DNA from: Streptomyces profundus
GTDB lineage: Bacteria > Actinomycetota > Actinomycetes > Streptomycetales > Streptomycetaceae
Reading direction: 5' to 3'
Length of the DNA stretch: 64,000 nt
Assembly: GCF_020740535.1 (NCBI RefSeq)
Contig: NZ_CP082362.1
Location: 6,941,501-7,005,500, forward strand
The notes under the pieces are model-generated. The model did not search any database and was not told the DNA's origin. It worked only from the letters and a program-made list of their open reading frames with translations. Numbering within the stretch: position 1 is the stretch's first letter; every line of letters starts with the position of its first letter. Shown piece after piece: positions 37,957-51,586 of this stretch. A program made the translations under genes and the position numbers.

Positions 37957-39054
37957 TCAGCGGGTGAGGGCGATGACGGTGGCCTGGTCGGTGCCCGCGT
38001 AGAGGGTGTCGTCCGAGGCCGCGAGGTGCAGCACGTGCTCGCCCGGGGCGTCGGCCGTGCCGATCTCGTACTCCCAGCGCACCGCCCCGGTGGCCAGCTC
38101 GGCCGCCACCAGCAGGCGGGGCTCGGCCGGATAGTAGACGGTGTCCCCGTGCACTGCGAGGGGCAGCAGGTCGCCGGTCACCGTCGCCTGCCAGCGCTCC
38201 TCGCCGCTCGCGCCGTCCAGGGCGTACAGGCGGCGGCCGGCGGCGCAGGGCACCAGCAACAGCCCTTCGGCGGCGACCGGACCGATCACCTGCCCGGAGA
38301 CATCGGCCGTCCACCGCCGCTCGCCGGAGCGCGCCTCCACCGCGTGCACCCGGCCGGCCGCCGTGCCCGCGCACACCAGATCGCCGACGAACGCGACCGT
38401 CGAGACCACGCCCTCGCCGGTGTCCAACGCCCAGCGTTCCGTCCCGTCGGCGGTGTCCCAGGCCGACAACAGGCCGTCGCCGCCGCCCAGATGGACCGCG
38501 CCGTCCCTGAGCCGGGGGTCGGCGAAGAACTGCCCGTCCGTGGCCACCGTCCACACCTCGGCGCCGCCCGCCACCTCCACGGCGCGTACCACCCCGTCCA
38601 GGCCGCCGACGTAGGCGACGCCATCGGCCACGGCCGGCGCCGAGAAGACGCCCATCCCCGACGTCGGCACCCGCCAGCGCTCCGCCCCGTCGGCGGCGTC
38701 AAGCGCCACCAGATCGCCCCCGCCGAGCCCCGTCACCAGCAGGTCGTCGGCCAACGCGGGGCGGCTGGCGCTCGTTCCGGTGGCCGACTCCCAGCGGGCG
38801 GAGCCGTCCCGCGTGTCGAGCGCGTACACGGCGGCCCCGGCGCGCGCCACATAGACGGTGTCGCCGGCCGGGGCGGCGGGCGCGGCCGACGCCGCCCCGT
38901 GCGGCGCGAAGGTCCACAGCGGGCTGCCGGGGGCGGTGGGCCGCTCGTCCGGGGTGTCGGAGCCGCCGCCGCAAGCCGTGGCGACCAGCGCCAGACCGGC
39001 CAGGCCGAACAGGCCCCGACGGGACGTCGCAACGGACAGCGGGGATCGTCTCAT
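37957..39054 (-). CDS. PQQ-like beta-propeller lipoprotein
   Basis: A 365-residue surface lipoprotein with signal TSRRGLFGLAGLALVATAC (Cys in the lipobox near residue 28) and a propeller of repeated PQQ-like blades with A-L-D-x-x-x-G-x-x-R-W, for example VYALDTRDGSARWE, LVALDAADGAERWR and LYALDGASGEERWQ. No catalytic residues of true quinoprotein dehydrogenases are evident, so a scaffold or ligand-binding role is likely. The start at 39054 places the Arg pair correctly. It lies downstream of and in line with the receptor kinase gene, 47 bases away, suggesting a shared transcript. Confidence 0.83.
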   Translation of the reverse strand: MRRSPLSVATSRRGLFGLAGLALVATACGGGSDTPDERPTAPGSPLWTFAPHGAASAAPAAPAGDTVYVARAGAAVYALDTRDGSARWESATGTSASRPALADDLLVTGLGGGDLVALDAADGAERWRVPTSGMGVFSAPAVADGVAYVGGLDGVVRAVEVAGGAEVWTVATDGQFFADPRLRDGAVHLGGGDGLLSAWDTADGTERWALDTGEGVVSTVAFVGDLVCAGTAAGRVHAVEARSGERRWTADVSGQVIGPVAAEGLLLVPCAAGRRLYALDGASGEERWQATVTGDLLPLAVHGDTVYYPAEPRLLVAAELATGAVRWEYEIGTADAPGEHVLHLAASDDTLYAGTDQATVIALTR

Positions 39055-39101: not shown

Positions 39102-41294
39102 TCAGATGTCGTCGGGGACCTCGGTGCCGAGGAAGCGGAACGCGCCGTCCGCCACCTGGTAGAAGAAGACGCCGTCGCCGACGAACAGGCCGTTCTCCTC
39201 CTCGAACGCGTACTGCTTGGCCGCTCCCTGATGGACCGTCAGCCGCAGCACCTCCACCACGTCCCGGTGGTCCACCGACTCCGTGCCCAACTCCTCGACG
39301 CAACGCGCCAGAACGTCGATCACGTCATAGCCCTCGGCCGCGAAGGGCGGCGGCGGCTCGCCGTGGTGCTCCTGGAACGCCTCGCTGAACTCCCGGGCGG
39401 ACGGCGCGGCCAGCGCGTCCGTCACGGTGGAGACCACCAGCCAGCCATCGGCCGACCGGCCCGCGGACTCGGCGAACCGGGGATCGTGCATCGCCTGGGT
39501 GCCGAGGCACAGGCCCCCGTACCCGGCCTCGGCGAGCAGGCCGGCGAACACGGCGGCCGACTCCCAGCCGCCCCCGAAGAGCACGGCGCCCGGCGCGTGG
39601 CCGGCGATCCGCCGCGCGGCGTCCCGCAGTTCGGCGTCCCCGCCCCGCGCCCGCTCCGGGATCACCTCGGGGCCGCCGCCCAGCAGCCCCGTCCTGGCGC
39701 TGCGGGTGATCTCCCAGCTGTAGTCGCTGCCGTCGTCCACCAGCACCACGGGGCCGTCCACCGCGCCCGAGGTCAACAGCGCCACGATCGGCCGCAGTTG
39801 CAGCGCGTCGATCGGACGGGCCATCGTGTAGACGGAGTTGAGGTTCCCGCCCGAGCCGTCCGTCACGGTGACCACCGACTTGCGCGCCCGCGTGTAGGGG
39901 TCCATCAGCGCCCTGGTGGCCGCGGGGGAGGTCGCCGCGACGACGGCGACCACCGCGTCGTCCGAGGCGAGGCGTTCCGCGACCCGCGCCGCCTCGTCGG
40001 CTGAGCCGCCGTCGTCGACGGCGCGCAGCACCAGGTCGAAGGAGCGCTGCTCGTCCGCGTTGTGCCGGGCCACCGCCACCTCGGCGCCGCGCAGTTGGCC
40101 GTCGGCCACCTCGGCGAGCGGGCCGCCCAGGTCCGCCTGGAAGGCGACCGTCAAGGCGGCCAGCTCCGGCGGGTCGGCGCCGTCAGCGGTGCCGGACGCG
40201 CTCCTGCCGTTCCACCACAGCACCCCGCCGCCGACCCCGGCCAGCCCCAGGCCCCCGCCGAGCAGCGCCAGCAGCGCGCGGCGCCTGGTCCGTCCTGGCC
40301 CCTGGTGGGGCGGCCCGAACGTGCCCGACGGCGGGTACGGCGTGCCGCCCCTGGCGGCCGTCGTGGTCTCCTCGCTCCCCACCGCGCCGTGCGGCACCTG
40401 CGTCGGCTCGATCGGCGGCAGGGACAGCATGCCGGCGGAGCGCTCGGCTATCAGATGGGTGACCGGCCCCGGCAGCCAGCCGCCGGCCGCCGCGCCCGCG
40501 TCGTGCCAGGCGTTCCGAAGCTCCCCGGTCGTCGGCCGGGCCGAGGCGTCCTTGGCCAGGCAACGCGAGAGCAACTCCCGCAGCGGGCCGGCCAGCTCGC
40601 CGAGATCGGGCTCGTTGTGCACGGTGCGGTAGAGCACCGAGGCCACCGGGCCGCCGCCGAACGGGCGCCGCCCGCTGGCCGCGAAGGCCAGCACACACCC
40701 CAGCGAGAACACGTCGCTCGGCGGCCCGACCGGCCGCCCGGCGGCCTGTTCGGGGGAGAGGAAGCCGGGTGAGCCGATCACCGCGTCCGTCGCGGTGAGC
40801 ACCGTGTCGTCCAGGGCCCTGGCGATGCCGAAGTCGATCAGCCGGGGCCCGTCGGGCGCGAGCAGCACATTGCCCGGTTTGACATCGCGGTGCACAAGAC
40901 CCGCGGTGTGCACCGCGTCCAGCGCCTCGGCCAGCCGCAGGCCCAGCGTCCGCACGCTCGGCTCGGGCAGCGCGCCGGTGGCGGCGACCGTCTCGTCGAG
41001 CGCGGGCCCCGGTACGAACTCCGTGGCGAGCCAGGGCGCTTCGGCCTCCGTGTCGGCCGCGACCACCGGCACGGCCCAGCGGTTGGTGACCTGACGGGCC
41101 GCCGCCACCTCGCGGCGGAACCGCCGCCGGAACGACGGCTCGTCGGCGAACTCCGGACGGATCAGCTTGATGGCGACCAGCGTGCCGTCCGTGCCGCGCG
41201 CCAGCAGCACGGTGCCCATCCCGCCGGCCCCCAGCCGGCCGAGGCACCGGTAGCGGCCGACCCACGCGGGATCGGCGGGACGGAGGGGACGCAT
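39102..41294 (-). CDS. Receptor Ser/Thr protein kinase with periplasmic-binding-protein ectodomain
   Basis: A 730-residue type I membrane receptor kinase. Residues 14-265 are a complete Hanks-type kinase: Gly-rich loop GAGGMG, Lys43 (AIKL), HRDVKPGN with Asp137, DFG with Asp154 and the GSPGFLSPEQ activation region. A Pro-rich juxtamembrane linker follows, one transmembrane helix at about 341-362, then an extracellular region of about 365 residues resembling the leucine/amide-binding (type I, Peripla_BP_6) fold: VAVARHNADEQRSFDLVL, AVVAATSPAATRALMDPY and AVLFGGGWESAAVFAGLL. This replaces the PASTA repeats of PknB. It should phosphorylate cytoplasmic targets in response to a small extracellular ligand. 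The upstream and downstream genes both encode lipoproteins. Confidence 0.87.
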   Translation of the reverse strand: MRPLRPADPAWVGRYRCLGRLGAGGMGTVLLARGTDGTLVAIKLIRPEFADEPSFRRRFRREVAAARQVTNRWAVPVVAADTEAEAPWLATEFVPGPALDETVAATGALPEPSVRTLGLRLAEALDAVHTAGLVHRDVKPGNVLLAPDGPRLIDFGIARALDDTVLTATDAVIGSPGFLSPEQAAGRPVGPPSDVFSLGCVLAFAASGRRPFGGGPVASVLYRTVHNEPDLGELAGPLRELLSRCLAKDASARPTTGELRNAWHDAGAAAGGWLPGPVTHLIAERSAGMLSLPPIEPTQVPHGAVGSEETTTAARGGTPYPPSGTFGPPHQGPGRTRRRALLALLGGGLGLAGVGGGVLWWNGRSASGTADGADPPELAALTVAFQADLGGPLAEVADGQLRGAEVAVARHNADEQRSFDLVLRAVDDGGSADEAARVAERLASDDAVVAVVAATSPAATRALMDPYTRARKSVVTVTDGSGGNLNSVYTMARPIDALQLRPIVALLTSGAVDGPVVLVDDGSDYSWEITRSARTGLLGGGPEVIPERARGGDAELRDAARRIAGHAPGAVLFGGGWESAAVFAGLLAEAGYGGLCLGTQAMHDPRFAESAGRSADGWLVVSTVTDALAAPSAREFSEAFQEHHGEPPPPFAAEGYDVIDVLARCVEELGTESVDHRDVVEVLRLTVHQGAAKQYAFEEENGLFVGDGVFFYQVADGAFRFLGTEVPDDI

Positions 41295-42555: not shown

Positions 42556-43056
42556 ATGATCGTGAACGCGGACACAACCGCGTGGGAGGAACGCGGCACG
42601 GTGCGGGTGGTACCGCCCGTGCGCTCCCGCAAGTTGGCGAAGGTGCCCTTCGTCGAGCTGGCCGAGGGGCGGTTGCAGGGCGTGGTGTCGAGCGGCTCGG
42701 ACATCGCCCGGGTCTATGTCTCGGCGATCGCCGCGCACAGCCACGGCCTCAGCTGCGGCACCAACAACAACCGGCCGTGCGGCGGGCTTTCCCGTTACCC
42801 CTGCAAGCACCTCCAGGCGCTGGTCAAGGAGGCCGAGATCCAGTACGGCGTGGAGCGCGTGGCCCGCTATCTCGGCGTCGAGGTCGGCGAGAACGACGGC
42901 GTGCTCGGGGGGCTGCGGGCCGGGCCGACGGGCGTCCCGGCCGGCGCCGTCTTCAGCCGGTTCCTGCGCCATCTCGCCTATCTGGAACGGCCGGACAGCA
43001 CGGCGCCGGTGCCGGAGATGGCGTGGTTCCCGGCGGCGGGGGCGGTGGCCGGCTGA
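42556..43056 (+). CDS. SWIM-like zinc-finger protein, first gene of the MoxR-VWA cluster
   Basis: A 166-residue protein with a metal-binding segment at about residues 67-87, C-x7-C-x7-C-x-H (SCGTNNNRPC, then SRYPCKHLQAL), ending in the C-x-H of SWIM fingers but without their CxC start. The rest is mixed alpha/beta, with a putative binding region QYGVERVARYLGVEVGEND. GGAGG is only three bases from ATG 42556 and nine from GTG 42562, so either may be used. Its stop overlaps the next start by one base. In related clusters a SWIM protein is thought to recognise substrate or nucleic acid for a MoxR/VWA machine; here that is inference from context. Confidence 0.7.
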   Translation: MIVNADTTAWEERGTVRVVPPVRSRKLAKVPFVELAEGRLQGVVSSGSDIARVYVSAIAAHSHGLSCGTNNNRPCGGLSRYPCKHLQALVKEAEIQYGVERVARYLGVEVGENDGVLGGLRAGPTGVPAGAVFSRFLRHLAYLERPDSTAPVPEMAWFPAAGAVAG

Positions 43057-44447
43057 TGTTCGGTATCCAACTCGCCGAGCTGCTGGGCCAGGAGCCCGAC
43101 GGCGTCGACGCGGCCATGGCCGTGGTGACCGGCTGCGACGAGGCCCTGGTGGAGGGCTTCGCCCGGCTGGGCGCCGACCGCGCCGCGGCGCTGACCGCGC
43201 TGGCGGGCGCCGTGGCCGCCTCGCCGCTCGGCCCGGCCGTCGCCGAGGCGGTGGAGAAGACCGCTGCCGGCTCGGCCACGGACGAGCATCTCGCCGCCGT
43301 AGCCGGGGCCAGGACCGCCCTGCTCGGCGCCGTGCACGACGCCCGACTCGCCTCCCTGGACGCGGCGTTGGGCCGCGCCAGGGAGCCCTGGCCCGAGGCG
43401 GCGGACGGCGCTCGGCTGGCCGAGCCGAGGCTGGCCGGAGCGCGCTCCTGGCTGCGGGAGCTGGCCCTGGTCGGCTGGCGCGGCGTCGGGGACGATCTGG
43501 TCTCGTCGGTCGACCCGCTGGTCGAGGCCCTGTGGGACGAGCCGGCGACGCGCCGGCTGGCCGTTCTGGTGGACGGCCTCGCCGCCGAGCTGCACGCCCT
43601 CGGCCCGCTGGCCACGGCCGAACGCCTCCCCGTCCGCCGCTGGTCCGATCTGTGGTCCCGCGCCCTGCTGCTCTCCCAGCCGGGCCCGTGGGCGCCCGAC
43701 GACGCGGAGGCGGCGCCGGTCACGGGCCGCCTGCTGCCGCTGGGCACGGAGATCCACGAGCACGGCACCAGCGTGCAGGTCGTGGTGCACGCCCTGCTGG
43801 AGCAGGGCGGCGAGGCGCCGACGCGGCTGGTGCGGGTCGGGGTCGGCGCGGCCAAGGTCGACACCATCGTCGGCCCCGCCGTCTGGCGGGTGCTGCACCG
43901 GCATCCGGTGCTGCTGGGGGCGCTCGCCGAGCGCCGCGCGCTGGAGATCGCCGAGATGCCGCTGCACGCCGGCGGCGACCTGCGCTGGCACGACGACCGC
44001 GCGCGTCCCGGCGAGCCCGCCGACCCGTTCGTCACCGCCAGGGCCGGACTCCCGGACGCGCTCGCCGCGCCCGTGCCGCCGCTGGACCGCCATCCGGTGC
44101 GGCTGGCCGAGCCGGTGCTGCTGGAGGGGTACACCGTCAAGGGCGACACCCTTCACCTCGACGGGCACGCTCTCCCGCTCGCCCTCGACCAGCTGCCGAG
44201 CAGCGGCCCGTTGACCCGCCAACTCGTGGGCGCCTCATCGGAGGTGATCGGCCTGCTGGGCTGGGACCGCGGCTGGACGCTGCGCCCGCTCGCGGTGCGC
44301 GCCACCGTGAAACGCCAGCGGGTCGAGGCGCACAACGGCGACTGGGCGCTCGGCCCAACCGACCCCAAGATCGCCAAGGCCGAGGCCAGGACGGGCGACG
44401 CGGTCGCCGTGCTGCGCGAGCGGGCGGGACGGTTGCTGCGCTCATGA
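43056..44447 (+). CDS. Unknown protein, second gene of the MoxR-VWA cluster
   Basis: A 463-residue soluble protein I do not recognise. Its first 240 residues are Ala/Leu/Glu-rich and helical, probably a repeat or HEAT-like scaffold; the C-terminal half is mixed, with beta-rich stretches (TRLVRVGVGAAKVDTIVG, LLEGYTVKGDTLHLDG) ending in a basic tail. No signal, membrane segment or known catalytic motif was found. Its start overlaps the SWIM gene stop by one base and its stop overlaps the VWA gene by four bases, so its product is needed in stoichiometry with its neighbours. It may be the adaptor or target-binding subunit. Confidence 0.7.
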   Translation: MFGIQLAELLGQEPDGVDAAMAVVTGCDEALVEGFARLGADRAAALTALAGAVAASPLGPAVAEAVEKTAAGSATDEHLAAVAGARTALLGAVHDARLASLDAALGRAREPWPEAADGARLAEPRLAGARSWLRELALVGWRGVGDDLVSSVDPLVEALWDEPATRRLAVLVDGLAAELHALGPLATAERLPVRRWSDLWSRALLLSQPGPWAPDDAEAAPVTGRLLPLGTEIHEHGTSVQVVVHALLEQGGEAPTRLVRVGVGAAKVDTIVGPAVWRVLHRHPVLLGALAERRALEIAEMPLHAGGDLRWHDDRARPGEPADPFVTARAGLPDALAAPVPPLDRHPVRLAEPVLLEGYTVKGDTLHLDGHALPLALDQLPSSGPLTRQLVGASSEVIGLLGWDRGWTLRPLAVRATVKRQRVEAHNGDWALGPTDPKIAKAEARTGDAVAVLRERAGRLLRS

Positions 44448-45811
44448 CCCAGGCAGAGAACCACCCGACCGAGGGCCCCGAAGCCCCGCCCACGGCCTCC
44501 GCCGCGTCCGATGCCCCGGCCGCCTCGGCAGCCTCGGCCGCCGAGAACCGCCGGCAGGTCCTCTACTGGCGGATGCTGGCCCGTCTCTTCGACGCCGGCG
44601 AACAGCCGAGCCTGGAGCAGTCAAGCGTGGCCGTCGTCGACGACCTCGGGCTGCCGCCCGCACTGCTCGACCCGGGTACGTCCGTGGACAACCTGGTGCA
44701 GCGCTTCCCCGAGCTGGGGGACGCCTTCCGCCAGGTGCTCCCCGAGCACGCCGACGCGCCGGAGGGTCCGGAGGACCCGGAGCTCTCGGTGCGCCGCGCG
44801 GCCCTGGTCTCCAAGCTGCTGCTCAACGCCTTCGCCACCGGCTCGGGTTCGGTGACGGCGGGTCAGCTGGCGAGCTGGCAGCAGGACGCGGCCTGGTGCC
44901 GGGGCGCCCTCGGCGGCGCCGACCCGGCCGAGCTGTCCGGCATCCTCTCCGGTCTTGAGGCCGACCTCGTCAAGCGGATGCGCCTGCGCGAGGTGCTGGC
45001 CGACTCGGCGCGGGCGGCGATGCTCACCCCGAGCATGTCGCTGATCGAGCAGCTGCTGCACGACAAGGACAACCTCTCGGGTGTCGCGCTGGCCAACGCC
45101 AAGGCGCTGATCCGCCGATTCGTCGACGAGGTGGCCGAGGTGCTGCGCACCCAGGTCGAGCGGACCACCGTCGGCAGCATCGACCGCTCCGTCCCGCCCA
45201 AGCGCGTCTTCCGCAACCTGGACATCCAGCGCACCATCTGGAAGAACCTCACCAACTGGAGCCCGGAGGACGAACGGCTCTATGTGGACCAGCTGTTCTA
45301 CCGGCACAGCGCGCGGCGGACCACCCCCTCCCGGCTGATCGTGGTGGTGGACCAGTCCGGGTCCATGGTCGACGCGATGGTCAACTGCACCATCCTGGCC
45401 TCGATCTTCGCCGGGCTGCCCAAGGTCGATGTGCATCTCGTCGCCTACGACACCCGCGCGCTGGATCTGACGCCCTGGGTGCACGACCCGTTCGAGGTGC
45501 TGCTCCGCACCCGGCTGGGCGGCGGCACCAACGGCACCGTCGCGATGGAGCTGGCCCGGCCGAAGATCGCCGAGCCAGGCAACACGGTGCTGGTGTGGAT
45601 CTCCGACTTCTACGACAACCCGGCCCTGCTCACCGACTTCCAGTCGGTCCACCGCTCCGGCGTGCGGCTGATCCCGGTCGGCTCCGTCAACAGCTCCGGT
45701 CGCGCCAGTGTCAACCCGACGTTCCGTCAGCGCCTCAAGGAGCAGGGCACCCCGGTGATCTCCGGGCATATCCGCAAGCTCGTGTTCGAACTCAAGAACT
45801 TTCTCGCCTAG
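44444..45811 (+). CDS. VWA-domain protein, MoxR partner
   Basis: A 455-residue protein whose C-terminal third is a von Willebrand factor A domain with a full MIDAS: DQSGSM (Asp303 to Met308), the Thr of GGGTNGT and Asp in WISDFYDN. Residues 1-30 are low-complexity Ala/Pro, and the middle is helical and basic. The start ATG overlaps the preceding stop. It is immediately followed, after 10 bases, by the MoxR ATPase gene. In MoxR systems the VWA subunit binds the AAA+ ring and delivers mechanical remodelling to a client, often for metal insertion; which client applies here is unknown. Confidence 0.87.
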   Translation: MTQAENHPTEGPEAPPTASAASDAPAASAASAAENRRQVLYWRMLARLFDAGEQPSLEQSSVAVVDDLGLPPALLDPGTSVDNLVQRFPELGDAFRQVLPEHADAPEGPEDPELSVRRAALVSKLLLNAFATGSGSVTAGQLASWQQDAAWCRGALGGADPAELSGILSGLEADLVKRMRLREVLADSARAAMLTPSMSLIEQLLHDKDNLSGVALANAKALIRRFVDEVAEVLRTQVERTTVGSIDRSVPPKRVFRNLDIQRTIWKNLTNWSPEDERLYVDQLFYRHSARRTTPSRLIVVVDQSGSMVDAMVNCTILASIFAGLPKVDVHLVAYDTRALDLTPWVHDPFEVLLRTRLGGGTNGTVAMELARPKIAEPGNTVLVWISDFYDNPALLTDFQSVHRSGVRLIPVGSVNSSGRASVNPTFRQRLKEQGTPVISGHIRKLVFELKNFLA

Positions 45812-45821
45812 GAGACGACAG

Positions 45822-46958
45822 ATGACCGACAACATGCTCCGCGCCCCGGCCGAGGCCAAGTACGCCGACGAGCTCGACTGGCTGGAGTCCGTCGACGACG
45901 GGCCCAAGCCGTTCTCCTGGCGGCTCAGCCCGCGCATGGTGCGCCTGTTCATCCTCGGCTCCGAGCGCGCCGACGGGCTGGAGCGGGAGATCCCGCAGAA
46001 GTGGTTCGGCGACCGGGCGTTCGTCGAACGCGCCATCGTCACCCTGGCATCGGACCGCGGGCTGCTGTTGATCGGCGATCCGGGGACGGGCAAGAGCTGG
46101 CTGGCCGAGCTCCTCTCGGCGGCCATCTCCCGCAACTCCACCCTCGTCGTCCAGGGCACCGCCGGCACCACCGAGGACCACATCAAGTACGCCTGGAACG
46201 TGTCGATGGTGATCGCCAAGGGCCAGTCCCGGCAGTCGATGATCCCCTCACCGATCATGACGGCGATGGAACGTGGCGTGATCGGCCGCTTCGAGGAGCT
46301 GACGAGGGCCACCAGCGACGTCCAGGACGCGCTGATCTCGATCCTCTCCGAGAAGTACGTCTCCATCCCCGAGCTGGGAGACGGAGACGGGGAGACCCCT
46401 GAGAACATCGTCTTCGCCGAGCCGGGATTCTCCATCATCGCCACCGCGAACAGCCGCGACCGGGGGGTCAACGACCTGTCGTCCGCGCTCAAGCGGCGGT
46501 TCAACTTCGTCCGCATCCCGGTGGTCACCAACAAGCGCAGCGAGGCGGAGATCGTGCGCTTCCGCACCAGGGAGCTGCTGCGCCGACACCAGATCGACCT
46601 TGAGGTGCCGCCCTCGCTGCTCGACATCCTGTTGCAGAGCTTCGCCGATCTGCGCGCCGCCTCGGCCTCGGCCGCCAGCGACGACGAGAAGCTGGAGTCG
46701 GCCCTCTCCACCGCCGAGCAGATCGGCGTCCTTGAGGACGCCATCCTGCACAGCCAGTTCTTCGGCGACCGGGTCCTCGGCGCCGGCACCCTGGCCGGCT
46801 CGCTGGTCAGCTCGCTGGCCCGCCGCAGCCCCGAGGACCTGGCCATTCTCAACAAGTTCTGGCACGGCGTAGTGGAGCCGCGCGGCGAGAAGGACCAGGG
46901 CGGCCCCTGGGAGGACTTCCTCAACGGTGGCCGCGAGGCGATAGCGACCCTGTCGTGA
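45822..46958 (+). CDS. MoxR-family AAA+ ATPase
   Basis: A 378-residue AAA+ ATPase. Walker A is GDPGTGKSW (about residues 85-93), the presensor/helix region includes GRFEELTRATSDVQDALIS, sensor 1 is IIATANSRD and the arginine-finger region is LKRRFNFVR. It belongs to the MoxR branch, which forms hexameric chaperone-like rings with VWA partners. The start is ATG 45822, preceded by GGAGACGAC. Its stop overlaps the DUF5682 start (GTGA), so all five cluster genes are coupled. Insert and linker regions around residues 225-300 could dock the VWA subunit. Confidence 0.9.
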   Translation: MTDNMLRAPAEAKYADELDWLESVDDGPKPFSWRLSPRMVRLFILGSERADGLEREIPQKWFGDRAFVERAIVTLASDRGLLLIGDPGTGKSWLAELLSAAISRNSTLVVQGTAGTTEDHIKYAWNVSMVIAKGQSRQSMIPSPIMTAMERGVIGRFEELTRATSDVQDALISILSEKYVSIPELGDGDGETPENIVFAEPGFSIIATANSRDRGVNDLSSALKRRFNFVRIPVVTNKRSEAEIVRFRTRELLRRHQIDLEVPPSLLDILLQSFADLRAASASAASDDEKLESALSTAEQIGVLEDAILHSQFFGDRVLGAGTLAGSLVSSLARRSPEDLAILNKFWHGVVEPRGEKDQGGPWEDFLNGGREAIATLS

Positions 46959-49819
46959 GCGAGATCGTCCAGGAACGCACAGGCGGAAGCGAGGACGGCG
47001 TGGACGCCGAGGCCACCGGCCCGTTCGCCGCGTTGAGCGAACGGCTGCGCGAGGCGGCCGTGGAGTTCGCCGGCCACGGGGACGCGGTGCCCGACATCCT
47101 CGCCGGCATGGTCGAGGACGTGGACCGGGCGCTGCGCGAGGAGTTGGAGATCTTCCCGGTCTGCCACCACTCGCCCGCCTCGGCGCTCGCCATGGTCCGC
47201 CGGCTGCGGGAGAAGCGGCCCCAGGTCGTCTACCTGGAGCTGTGCGAGGACCTGCGCCCGCTCGTCGACGAGCTGCACAACTGCCAACTCCCCGTCGCGC
47301 TCCAGGCGTTCGCCACCGAGATCGACGGTTTCCCCGCCCAGTGGGCGCCGCTGAGCGTGGTGGCGCCCCTCACCGAGGCGTCGGCCGAGTACCAGGCGAT
47401 CGCCTACGCCCTGGAGACCCCGGGCGTGGAGCTGGTGTTGGTCGACCGCTCGACGGACCATGTCTTCCAGTGGAGCCGCCCGCCGCAGGACGTCAAGGCC
47501 CCGGAGCCGGCCCCGGGCGCCGAGGAACCCTCGGATCCGGAGGAGGGGGCGCTGCACGGCGACGCCGTCGGCATCGAGATCGGCGATCTGCGGCCCGGGT
47601 TCGCCGAGCTGGAGGAGTACCTGCTCCACCACGGCAAGGTCAGGCACTGGTCCGAGTGGTGGGACCAGTACGTCGAACAGCCGCTGGCCGGCGCCGACTA
47701 CACCACCTACCGCCAGGTGATGGTGATGATCGGCAGCCTCTTCAGGCGGCTGCGCCCCGAGCGGCACGCCCGGTTGGCGGTCGACGAGGACCGCGAGCGC
47801 TACATGTGGACGCGGATGCGGGAGCACCTCGCCGCCTCGGGCGCCGACCCCGAGCGCTGCCTCTACGTCTGCGGCGCCTTCCACGCGGCCAGCCGGGTCG
47901 AACAGTTCGGCCTGGCGTCCGAGGCCGAGCCGTTCCCGATCTCCCCCCGCACGGGCACCTCCTGGCGGTACGGGCTGATCCCGTCCAGCCACTCCGCGAT
48001 CGAGGCCCAGTTCGGTCTCGCCCCGGGGGCGGTGTCCATCGCGGCGGCGAGCTGGCGGCGGACGCTCGGTCGAAGCCGCCTCAAGCCGTTCCGGCTCGAC
48101 GGCCGCAAGACCGCGAAGAAACGCGCCGCCAAGGGCGCGGGCGCCGCGAAGGCCGCGCCGGCCGCCGGACGGGAGTCCGTCACCGACCGGCTGTCGGGCT
48201 TCCTCCAGTCCGCACCCGAGCCCCATGTCCTCGACGAGGACGAACTGCTCGGCTGGTGTGTGGACATCGTCCGGCTGGCCCGCCGCAACCGCTACCTCGC
48301 CAGCACCGCTGACGCGATCGCCATCTTCGAGACGTCCATCCTGCTGGCCGGGATGCGCGGGCGGGCCAGGCCTACCCCGTACGACTTCGAGGACGCGGCG
48401 GTCACCTGCATCGAGAAGGACCGCGTGCCCGGCCGCCGCGATGTGCGTCGGCTCTGCGAGATCCTGCTCGGCGGCGACCGGGTGGGTTCCGTCGGCTATG
48501 ACGCGCTGCCGCCGCTGGCCAGGGACGTGCTGGACCGGCTGGCGCCGCTGGGGCTCAATCTCACCGCGCGCACCCAGCAGCGGGCGCTGCTCGACCTCCG
48601 GCAGAACCCGGAGTTGGCGCCCTGTTCCGATCTGCTGTGGATGCTGCGCCGCCTGCTCGGCGATGTGGTCCGCCCGATCATGGGCGCCCGGGCGCTGGGG
48701 GAGCGGTCCATCCAGGAGAGCTGGGATCTCACCCTCGGCCGCGACCAGCGGGCCCTGGTGCAGCTCGGCTACGAGGGCGTCACCATCGAGCAGGTCCTGG
48801 AACGTCGGCTGCGGGACGCCGTGCGGGCCCCCGACGCCACGGCGGCCACCGCGCTGGACGCGGTCGAGGAGGCCCTCCTCTATCTGGACAGCCCCCGGCT
48901 CGGGAACGACCTCGGCACCCGGGCGGTGGAGCTGCTGGCCGCCGAACGCACCGTGGACGGGGCGCCCCGGGTGCTGCGCGGCATCAGGCGGCTGCTGACG
49001 CACTACCGCGCCACCGACGAGGGGCCGCCCCCGTGGGCGGAGGCCTTCGTCACCGGCGGCTACGCGCACTACTGCACCCTGCTGCCGACCGCGTTCGCCG
49101 ACGACGAGGCCGGGCCACGGCAGGTGGGCGCCATGTTGGGCTTCCTCTTCGGGATGGAGAGCTTCGCGCTCTCGCTCGGCTGCGAACGCACCCAACTGGA
49201 GCTGGCGGTACGGCAGTCACATCCGAGCGCACCGGACAAGGTGGCCCTGCTCTGGGCGGCGATGGCCCGTCTCGATCTGATCTCGACGGCCGAGCTGCGC
49301 GCCCGGTGCGACGAACTCCTCGCCAACCCGCTGGTGGTGCCGGCGTTCCCGCGCTATCTGAGCGGGTTCATCCAGGCCCTTGAGGCGGTCCCCACCCTGG
49401 CTCCGTTCGTGGTGGAGCTGCTCTCCAAGGCGTTCGCCCGGCTGCCGGACGCGACGCTGCTGCCCTGGCTGCCCCAGCTGATCAGCACGCTGCGCAAGGA
49501 GGCGGGCGAGCTGGTGCCGGTGCTGGTGCGGGAGGCGGGCCGCACCTTCCCCGGCACGCTCGCCGGGGTGGACGCCTGGATACCGCCGTGGGACGCCCCG
49601 GCGGCGGAGTCGGCCGTTGAGGCGCCGGCGGCCCCGGTGAACCGCGCGGTCGCCGAGCTGCTGGCGGCGCACCCCGAGTCCTGCTCGTCGGTGGCCGCCC
49701 TCGTCGGGGCGTCGGGGGAGTGGCAGCCGCTGCCGGGAGCCGACCCAGCCGGCGAGCTGTTGGCCCGCCATCCGGAACCGGCCCGAGCGGTCGCGGCGCT
49801 GCTGGCGCCGGCGGTCTGA
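46955..49819 (+). CDS. Large DUF5682-type protein, last gene of the MoxR-VWA cluster
   Basis: A 954-residue protein. The N-terminal 320 residues carry a motif set resembling the TraB/TIKI/EreA-type hydrolase superfamily: CHHSPASALAMV (His71, His72), VVYLELCEDLRPLV (Glu95 region) and VCGAFHAASRV (His310). The remainder is long, helical and repeat-like, with a conserved-looking GARALGERSIQESWD segment near residue 580. The N-terminal pattern matches families called DUF5682, found next to MoxR-VWA genes. It lacks signal and membrane segments. The GTG at 46955 overlaps the MoxR stop. A metal-dependent hydrolase coupled to a remodelling AAA+ machine is the best reading, but catalytic activity is unproven. 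Confidence 0.82.
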   Translation: MSEIVQERTGGSEDGVDAEATGPFAALSERLREAAVEFAGHGDAVPDILAGMVEDVDRALREELEIFPVCHHSPASALAMVRRLREKRPQVVYLELCEDLRPLVDELHNCQLPVALQAFATEIDGFPAQWAPLSVVAPLTEASAEYQAIAYALETPGVELVLVDRSTDHVFQWSRPPQDVKAPEPAPGAEEPSDPEEGALHGDAVGIEIGDLRPGFAELEEYLLHHGKVRHWSEWWDQYVEQPLAGADYTTYRQVMVMIGSLFRRLRPERHARLAVDEDRERYMWTRMREHLAASGADPERCLYVCGAFHAASRVEQFGLASEAEPFPISPRTGTSWRYGLIPSSHSAIEAQFGLAPGAVSIAAASWRRTLGRSRLKPFRLDGRKTAKKRAAKGAGAAKAAPAAGRESVTDRLSGFLQSAPEPHVLDEDELLGWCVDIVRLARRNRYLASTADAIAIFETSILLAGMRGRARPTPYDFEDAAVTCIEKDRVPGRRDVRRLCEILLGGDRVGSVGYDALPPLARDVLDRLAPLGLNLTARTQQRALLDLRQNPELAPCSDLLWMLRRLLGDVVRPIMGARALGERSIQESWDLTLGRDQRALVQLGYEGVTIEQVLERRLRDAVRAPDATAATALDAVEEALLYLDSPRLGNDLGTRAVELLAAERTVDGAPRVLRGIRRLLTHYRATDEGPPPWAEAFVTGGYAHYCTLLPTAFADDEAGPRQVGAMLGFLFGMESFALSLGCERTQLELAVRQSHPSAPDKVALLWAAMARLDLISTAELRARCDELLANPLVVPAFPRYLSGFIQALEAVPTLAPFVVELLSKAFARLPDATLLPWLPQLISTLRKEAGELVPVLVREAGRTFPGTLAGVDAWIPPWDAPAAESAVEAPAAPVNRAVAELLAAHPESCSSVAALVGASGEWQPLPGADPAGELLARHPEPARAVAALLAPAV

Positions 49820-49833
49820 ACGGCCCCTTCCTG

Positions 49834-49871
49834 CGCCGCGTCCCGCCGTCCTGTGACGGCGGGACGCGGCG
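49834..49871. terminator. Terminator of the MoxR-VWA cluster
   Basis: A perfect 17-bp inverted repeat (49834-49850 and 49855-49871) with loop CTGT, 15 bases after the last cluster stop codon. It is one of the strongest hairpins in the window. Confidence 0.8.
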
Positions 49872-49916
49872 TCTGTCATGACCGAGAGCCGTTTCCGAAA
49901 AGCTTCCAGAGGTGTT

Positions 49917-50005: not shown

Positions 50006-51586
<1,581 letters not shown>

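Follow-up and report, generated by a model that had tools for sequence, protein, structure and literature searches.

A five-gene cluster of Streptomyces profundus belongs, as a divergent subtype, to a widespread YehL-type MoxR-VWA-DUF5682 module and may encode a protein-remodelling machine

In the genome of Streptomyces profundus, we examined a stretch of 64,000 nucleotides (NZ_CP082362.1, 6,941,501-7,005,500; hereafter the window, to whose positions all coordinates below refer), and in it a compact cluster of five genes on the + strand that fills 42556-49819. The first gene encodes a SWIM-like zinc-binding protein of 166 amino acids (42556..43056) with the motif C-x7-C-x7-C-x-H, and the second a 463-residue protein without a Pfam family (43056..44447), the N-terminal half of which is helical and the beta-rich middle of which may be OB-like. 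They are followed by the genes of a VWA protein of the CoxE/YehP type (44444..45811; 455 amino acids) with an intact metal-ion-dependent adhesion site (MIDAS), of a MoxR-type AAA+ ATPase related to YehL (45822..46958; 378 amino acids), and of a DUF5682 protein of the YehM type (46955..49819; 954 amino acids), in which a putative TIKI/ChaN-like N-terminal domain precedes a helical-repeat body. The identities that an earlier reading of the bare sequence, here termed the original prediction, had given to the VWA and MoxR proteins were borne out by Pfam (VWA_CoxE, E 4.5e-28; AAA_5, E 1.8e-37), as was that of the last protein, since a six-frame search with a cut-off of 26 bits recognized DUF5682 (PF18934) at 108 bits. 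The N-terminal piece of the 954-residue protein alone also matched DUF5682 (E 4.3e-18), and these two matches suggest that the missing DUF5682 match in the hmmscan of the whole protein results from filtering. Neither the 166-residue protein nor the 463-residue protein had a Pfam match at E 0.1, and the name SWIM is therefore based on the motif, which was kept as C-x7-C-x7or8-C-x-H in 11/11 sequences, including that of the window and one with a spacing of 8.

All five genes were also called by a second gene caller, the codon model of which was trained on the same genes, so that this agreement is not independent. The successive junctions measure -1, -4, +10, and -4 bases, beginning with the 1-base overlap at 43056. 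The cluster had been described as five coupled genes with overlaps at four of five junctions and a last gap of 10 bases; the tight packing on one strand is indeed found, but there are four junctions and three overlaps, and the 10-base gap lies between the VWA and MoxR genes rather than at the last junction. The predicted 17-bp hairpin behind the cluster is present at 49833..49872 (+), 13 bases 3' of the last stop codon, and comprises 17 Watson-Crick pairs (18 pairs when one G-U is counted) and a 4-nucleotide loop. Its energy is -45.3 kcal/mol, compared with a mean of -26.1 for shuffled sequences (z -6.1). No T tract follows 3' of it, the terminator scan did not list it, and the promoter scan gave nothing informative.

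The five genes behave as one unit in inheritance. Among 61 genomes (the own genome and 60 relatives), a full-length DUF5682 protein of the window type was found in 13, with one further weak and partial match in G048, and the SWIM gene was present in exactly these 13 genomes. The gene of the 463-residue protein was found in 12 of the 13, the exception being a fragmented assembly of 980 contigs (G050), and a weak match in another genome (G053), interrupted by stop codons, is likely spurious. The Fisher P values for co-occurrence were 1.5e-13 and 9.5e-11, values that ignore the relatedness of the genomes. In all ten relatives for which the 20-kb surroundings were fetched, with genes called by our own scripts, the gene order was identical to that in the window, and in two of these ten, the SWIM and 463-residue proteins form one reading frame. 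Within the genus, the cluster is patchily distributed (9/37 Streptomyces genomes, the own included), and one Streptomyces genome (G013) holds three paralogous clusters.

A related set of genes exists in Escherichia coli K-12, where yehL, yehM, yehP, and yehQ lie in a row. By sequence comparison, the MoxR, VWA, and DUF5682 proteins of the window are homologous to YehL (39% identity over 365 columns, E 5e-81), YehP (33% identity over 261 columns), and YehM, respectively. YehM is a DUF5682 protein according to Pfam (E 2.4e-98) and matches the window protein over 98 columns. With a YehL-related MoxR, a DUF5682 protein, and a CoxE-type VWA protein, the window thus holds three of the parts of a YehL-type module. 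The E. coli set differs in its gene order and ends with the SWIM protein YehQ (614 amino acids), which has a Pfam SWIM match but no detectable relation to the SWIM or the 463-residue protein of the window. In E. coli, the yehM sequence occurs in 5284/5426 genomes, in 5166 of them with at least 80% covered; in one strain (NZ_CP137737.1), the yehM match bears two DUF5682 annotations and, within it, that of an IS5 family transposase. Close to the yeh cluster lies yehF (L015 1475-2299), the product of which is annotated as a member of PF05406, the WGR domain family, with a possible link to nucleic acids.

To see how far such modules extend, we scanned named genomes and analyzed the best 80 of at least 509 confirmed candidate loci; as the query began with a protein of what we call subtype A, this subtype is over-represented. 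Genes for SWIM, DUF5691, MoxR, DUF5682, and VWA proteins occurred together in 63 of the 65 loci with enough flanking sequence, the two exceptions being L081, in which none was found, and L096, which had no SWIM gene. Judging from record titles and what we take to be their taxonomy, the wider loci span actinobacteria, cyanobacteria, Chloroflexi, Planctomycetota, Proteobacteria, Bacteroidota, and Chthonomonas. Subtype A (SWIM-DUF5691-MoxR-DUF5682-VWA) consists of five genes of kinds that match those of the window, but DUF5691 takes the place of the 463-residue protein, to which no sequence relation was detected, and in the window the VWA gene precedes the MoxR gene and the DUF5682 gene comes last. 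Ten loci have SWIM and DUF5691 in a single frame, which Pfam confirmed for L082, and DUF5682 and VWA are fused in four, as Pfam confirmed for L062 (PF18934 in residues 34-987, VWA_CoxE in residues 1016-1237). In these four loci, which we call subtype B (L062, L063, L064, L065), the DUF5682-VWA protein has 1169-1340 amino acids and adjoins DUF4132 and a protein of 1584-1779 amino acids; the one of the latter that was tested had no Pfam match.

In a midpoint-rooted tree of the MoxR proteins, the window protein falls into a clade of 11 sequences with a support of 1.0 (subtype W), apart from subtype B (4 sequences, 0.998) and subtype A (81 sequences, 0.725), and E. coli YehL, which is in a separate clade from the window protein, is nearest to subtype B. 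Subtype W, to which the cluster belongs, is a divergent form of a bacterial module that is widespread but unstudied. YehL has been listed as one of seven MoxR subfamilies (PMC3893208), and yehQ was cloned and deleted in a study on butanol tolerance (PMC6442406). Our literature search for DUF5682 or DUF5691, in 5.39 million papers, found none, and the remark of the original prediction that it knew of no defined function for this combination holds, although it missed the relation to the yeh genes. We found no assigned function for this five-gene set, the members of which stay side by side in groups as different as actinobacteria, cyanobacteria, planctomycetes, and Bacteroidota.

The motor part appears fully equipped. 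In a motif check of 97 sequences (on the MoxR side, those of the window, E. coli, L046-L065, and L066-L145), the Walker A lysine, the second glutamate of Walker B, and the last arginine of the arginine finger were present throughout, as were the aspartate and both serines of DxSxS and the MIDAS aspartate on the VWA side; the MIDAS threonine was present in 90 and replaced by asparagine in the remaining 7. Walker A, catalytic glutamate, arginine finger, and MIDAS are thus intact, as is expected of a MoxR-VWA chaperone. The Walker B motif of the YehL-type MoxR proteins reads E-E in all 97 sequences, the usual form being D-E. A VWA partner of a MoxR-type AAA+ ATPase is also known from NorQ-NorD, RavA-ViaA, CbbQ-CbbO, and CoxD-CoxE, for which the published passages at hand, however, describe no DUF5682 or SWIM partner. 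In the domain scan, the window VWA protein contained only VWA-type domains, and its counterparts in the 11 window-type loci range from 455 to 560 amino acids.

The DUF5682 protein may carry a hydrolase domain of the TIKI/ChaN type, as suggested by residue patterns and a structure model (mean pLDDT, the predicted local distance difference test, of 80), although the assignment is not statistically secure. Invariant residues are H71, H72, E95, E145, D164, R280, E281, and H310, of which H71/H72, E95, and H310 showed no variation in sets of 55 and 37 sequences and adjoin the predicted strands 1, 2, and 6. The predicted alpha/beta domain thereby shows a TIKI-like pattern, with a histidine following strand 1, E95 lying within strand 2, and GAxH behind the sixth strand. 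TIKI-fold enzymes, which include a cytotoxic protease, have a set of 2His/2Glu (PMC6254334), and E145, E241, or E281 are candidates for the second glutamate in DUF5682. The order of the H, E, and GxxH residues and the predicted topology resemble those of the TIKI/TraB/ChaN superfamily, from which DUF5682 differs by its large helical-repeat body and by the lack of a significant family match: Pfam found no TIKI, TraB, or ChaN family in the N-terminal piece.

Profiles were also compared. With 112 DUF5682 sequences (the P proteins thinned to one in four) and 8 ChaN sequences (10 loci, of which 9 gave a piece and 8 were kept), a 36-column alignment along R..M..I..vvcGawH gave P 0.0021. In the same round, the DUF5682-TraB comparison, with 6 TraB sequences (YbaP and the 5 of more than 200 residues among the pieces from 10 of 17 loci), gave 0.083, the reversed controls 0.04-0.22, and the TraB-ChaN pair 0.0007. 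In the two preceding rounds, real pairs were not separated from reversed controls: the first, with a shallow TraB set, gave P 0.26 against 0.17 for the reversed control, and the second, in which some frames had been wrongly extracted, gave 0.051 and 0.014 for real pairs and 0.019-0.038 for reversed controls. Structure searches with whole models yielded nothing at E 1e-3, and those with the DUF5682 model were filled by helical-repeat matches. A search for TraB found none in the own genome and 2 of 246 in the phylum.

Of the five proteins, the 463-residue protein diverges fastest, with a mean identity of 52% between the window and its relatives, and MoxR slowest (86%), the pattern to be expected if the former faces the client and the latter is the motor. 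The 463-residue protein may hold an OB-like part that binds nucleic acids, as 36 of the 50 VIA rows listed fall within residues 210-343 and most are titled as OB-type nucleic-acid binders, but this is a weaker lead than the DUF5682 hydrolase domain. In one relative (G046:C5:224813-226315), the protein matches as two pieces with a break near residue 213-216, which suggests a variable insertion. Profile comparison with DUF5691 gave P 0.42, and the protein is thus not recognizable as the DUF5691 protein of subtype A. The guess that the protein might correspond to the C-terminal half of YehQ, made because 166 plus 463 residues resemble the 614 of YehQ, was likewise unsupported by profile comparison. 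More generally, when the proteins on the SWIM side were compared by this method among the three subtypes and E. coli, no mutual relation was detected, with the exception of a weak in-register match between the SWIM proteins of W and A.

Taking these aspects together, we tentatively interpret the cluster as encoding one ATP-driven machine for protein remodelling and processing, of the W subtype, in which DUF5682 would act on the remodelled client. The single machine already proposed in the original prediction is supported by the co-occurrence and kept order of the genes, the fusions, and the intact catalytic and metal-site motifs of MoxR and VWA, and the fusions of SWIM with its neighbour and of DUF5682 with VWA argue for one physical complex. 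As the SWIM and 463-residue proteins are one polypeptide in two relatives, they might form one adaptor through which the client, perhaps nucleic acid or a nucleoprotein, is bound. By analogy with NorQ-NorD, a MoxR hexamer would then power the pulling or twisting of the client by VWA, and DUF5682, tied to VWA (and fused to it in subtype B), would set its putative TIKI/ChaN-like domain on the helical-repeat body against the client, which could thus be cleaved or modified after remodelling. A bolder version, which we regard as doubtful, is that of a new class of AAA+ processing machine for nucleic-acid-bound clients, in which a MoxR-VWA motor and a TIKI-type hydrolase are constant and a zinc-finger/OB adaptor is exchangeable, being replaced across bacteria (YehQ; SWIM-DUF5691; SWIM and the 463-residue protein). 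The proposed DUF5682 fold and catalytic residues, together with the intact motor and the replaceable adaptor, make direct experiments feasible in E. coli K-12 and Streptomyces.

No client gene recurs beside the cluster, which in part corresponds to an outcome that the original prediction had named as refuting it. Across the 11 window-type loci, no further neighbour family was found in more than 3, and in the 80 wider loci, the largest other neighbour cluster (from stop-to-stop frames, antisense included) spans 10 loci; many of the 25 wider neighbour clusters listed occur solely within a single set of related genera. This also bears on a somewhat unlikely alternative, namely a chaperone for the insertion of metals or cofactors, in which MoxR-VWA opens a metalloenzyme like NorQ-NorD or CoxD-CoxE and DUF5682 is a scaffold or a ChaN-like part for handling metal or haem rather than a hydrolase, because no metalloenzyme or cofactor gene stands out among these neighbours. 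The genes of NorQD and CbbQO adjoin those of their clients. The membership of the window VWA protein in VWA_CoxE would agree with such a chaperone, as would the finding that ChaN, the Pfam family name of which is Cofac_haem_bdg, is the best profile match of DUF5682. Further, iron insertion through twisting has been proposed for NorQD (PMC13036017) and help in the maturation of complex I for RavA-ViaA (PMC3893208), and yehM was among the genes mutated in one copper-evolution study (PMC12409786), in which it was, however, one gene of a long list.

The original prediction had also considered a conflict system, and MoxR-vWA pairs do form the core of published ternary conflict systems (PMC7159879). 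Here, an invader would trip the adaptor, and MoxR-VWA would free DUF5682 as a toxic effector, for which the patchy presence of subtype W (13/61 genomes) and the cytotoxic protease among the TIKI-fold enzymes could speak. The MoxR-vWA core is shared, but the third component, which is VMAP, iSTAND, FtsH, or a beta-propeller in the published systems, is DUF5682 in the window, and the main text of the respective article contains neither "SWIM" nor "TIKI" nor "Yeh" (PMC7159879). None of these third components was among the Pfam matches at E 0.1, a search in which the existence of a model for each was unchecked, and a bpMoxR match of the window proteins (E 0.042) was under the cut-off. Variable effector domains were not found on the window VWA protein, and DUF5682, the effector-like part, is conserved rather than variable.

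PADLOC gave weak matches for the five genes (best mad8 with E 1e-4 and TerY with 2.8e-4). Among 108 neighbouring proteins of 90-1200 amino acids from the window flanks and ten relatives, 36 PADLOC families matched at E 1e-10, and the 25 listed match 1 to 3 proteins each, mostly PD-T4-6 models with one protein each and mad3 with three. We take the PD-T4-6 and mads matches as a generic resemblance to kinases and ATPases, and no recognizable defence neighbourhood was found among the families listed. Phage records had no match to the cluster, and the 86 and 18 stretches of viral contigs that matched by pattern included no relative. As, in addition, yehM is near-general in E. coli, phage defence is a poorer fit than a standing cellular role, and we consider a conflict system very unlikely. 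In a plasmid collection, five records of 0.9 to 11.9 Mb carried window-type DUF5682, two of them below 1 Mb and the largest chromosome-sized, which, together with the patchy presence, points to an accessory role in Streptomyces.

There is an equally slim chance of mere co-transcription of a MoxR-VWA-DUF5682 unit with SWIM and 463-residue proteins that do something separate, for although hardly any relation was detected between the SWIM-side proteins of the subtypes, SWIM co-occurs exactly with window-type DUF5682, and the SWIM genes of subtype A adjoin MoxR, DUF5682, and VWA across phyla.

On its 5' side, the cluster is preceded by a gene at 39102-41294 (-) for a serine/threonine kinase fused to a sensor domain like that of periplasmic binding proteins (Pfam Pkinase, Peripla_BP_6), which adjoins the gene of a PQQ-type beta-propeller protein (37957-39054). 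Directly 3' of the cluster lies a gene for a GH10 xylanase with a CBM2 module (50201-51586, +).

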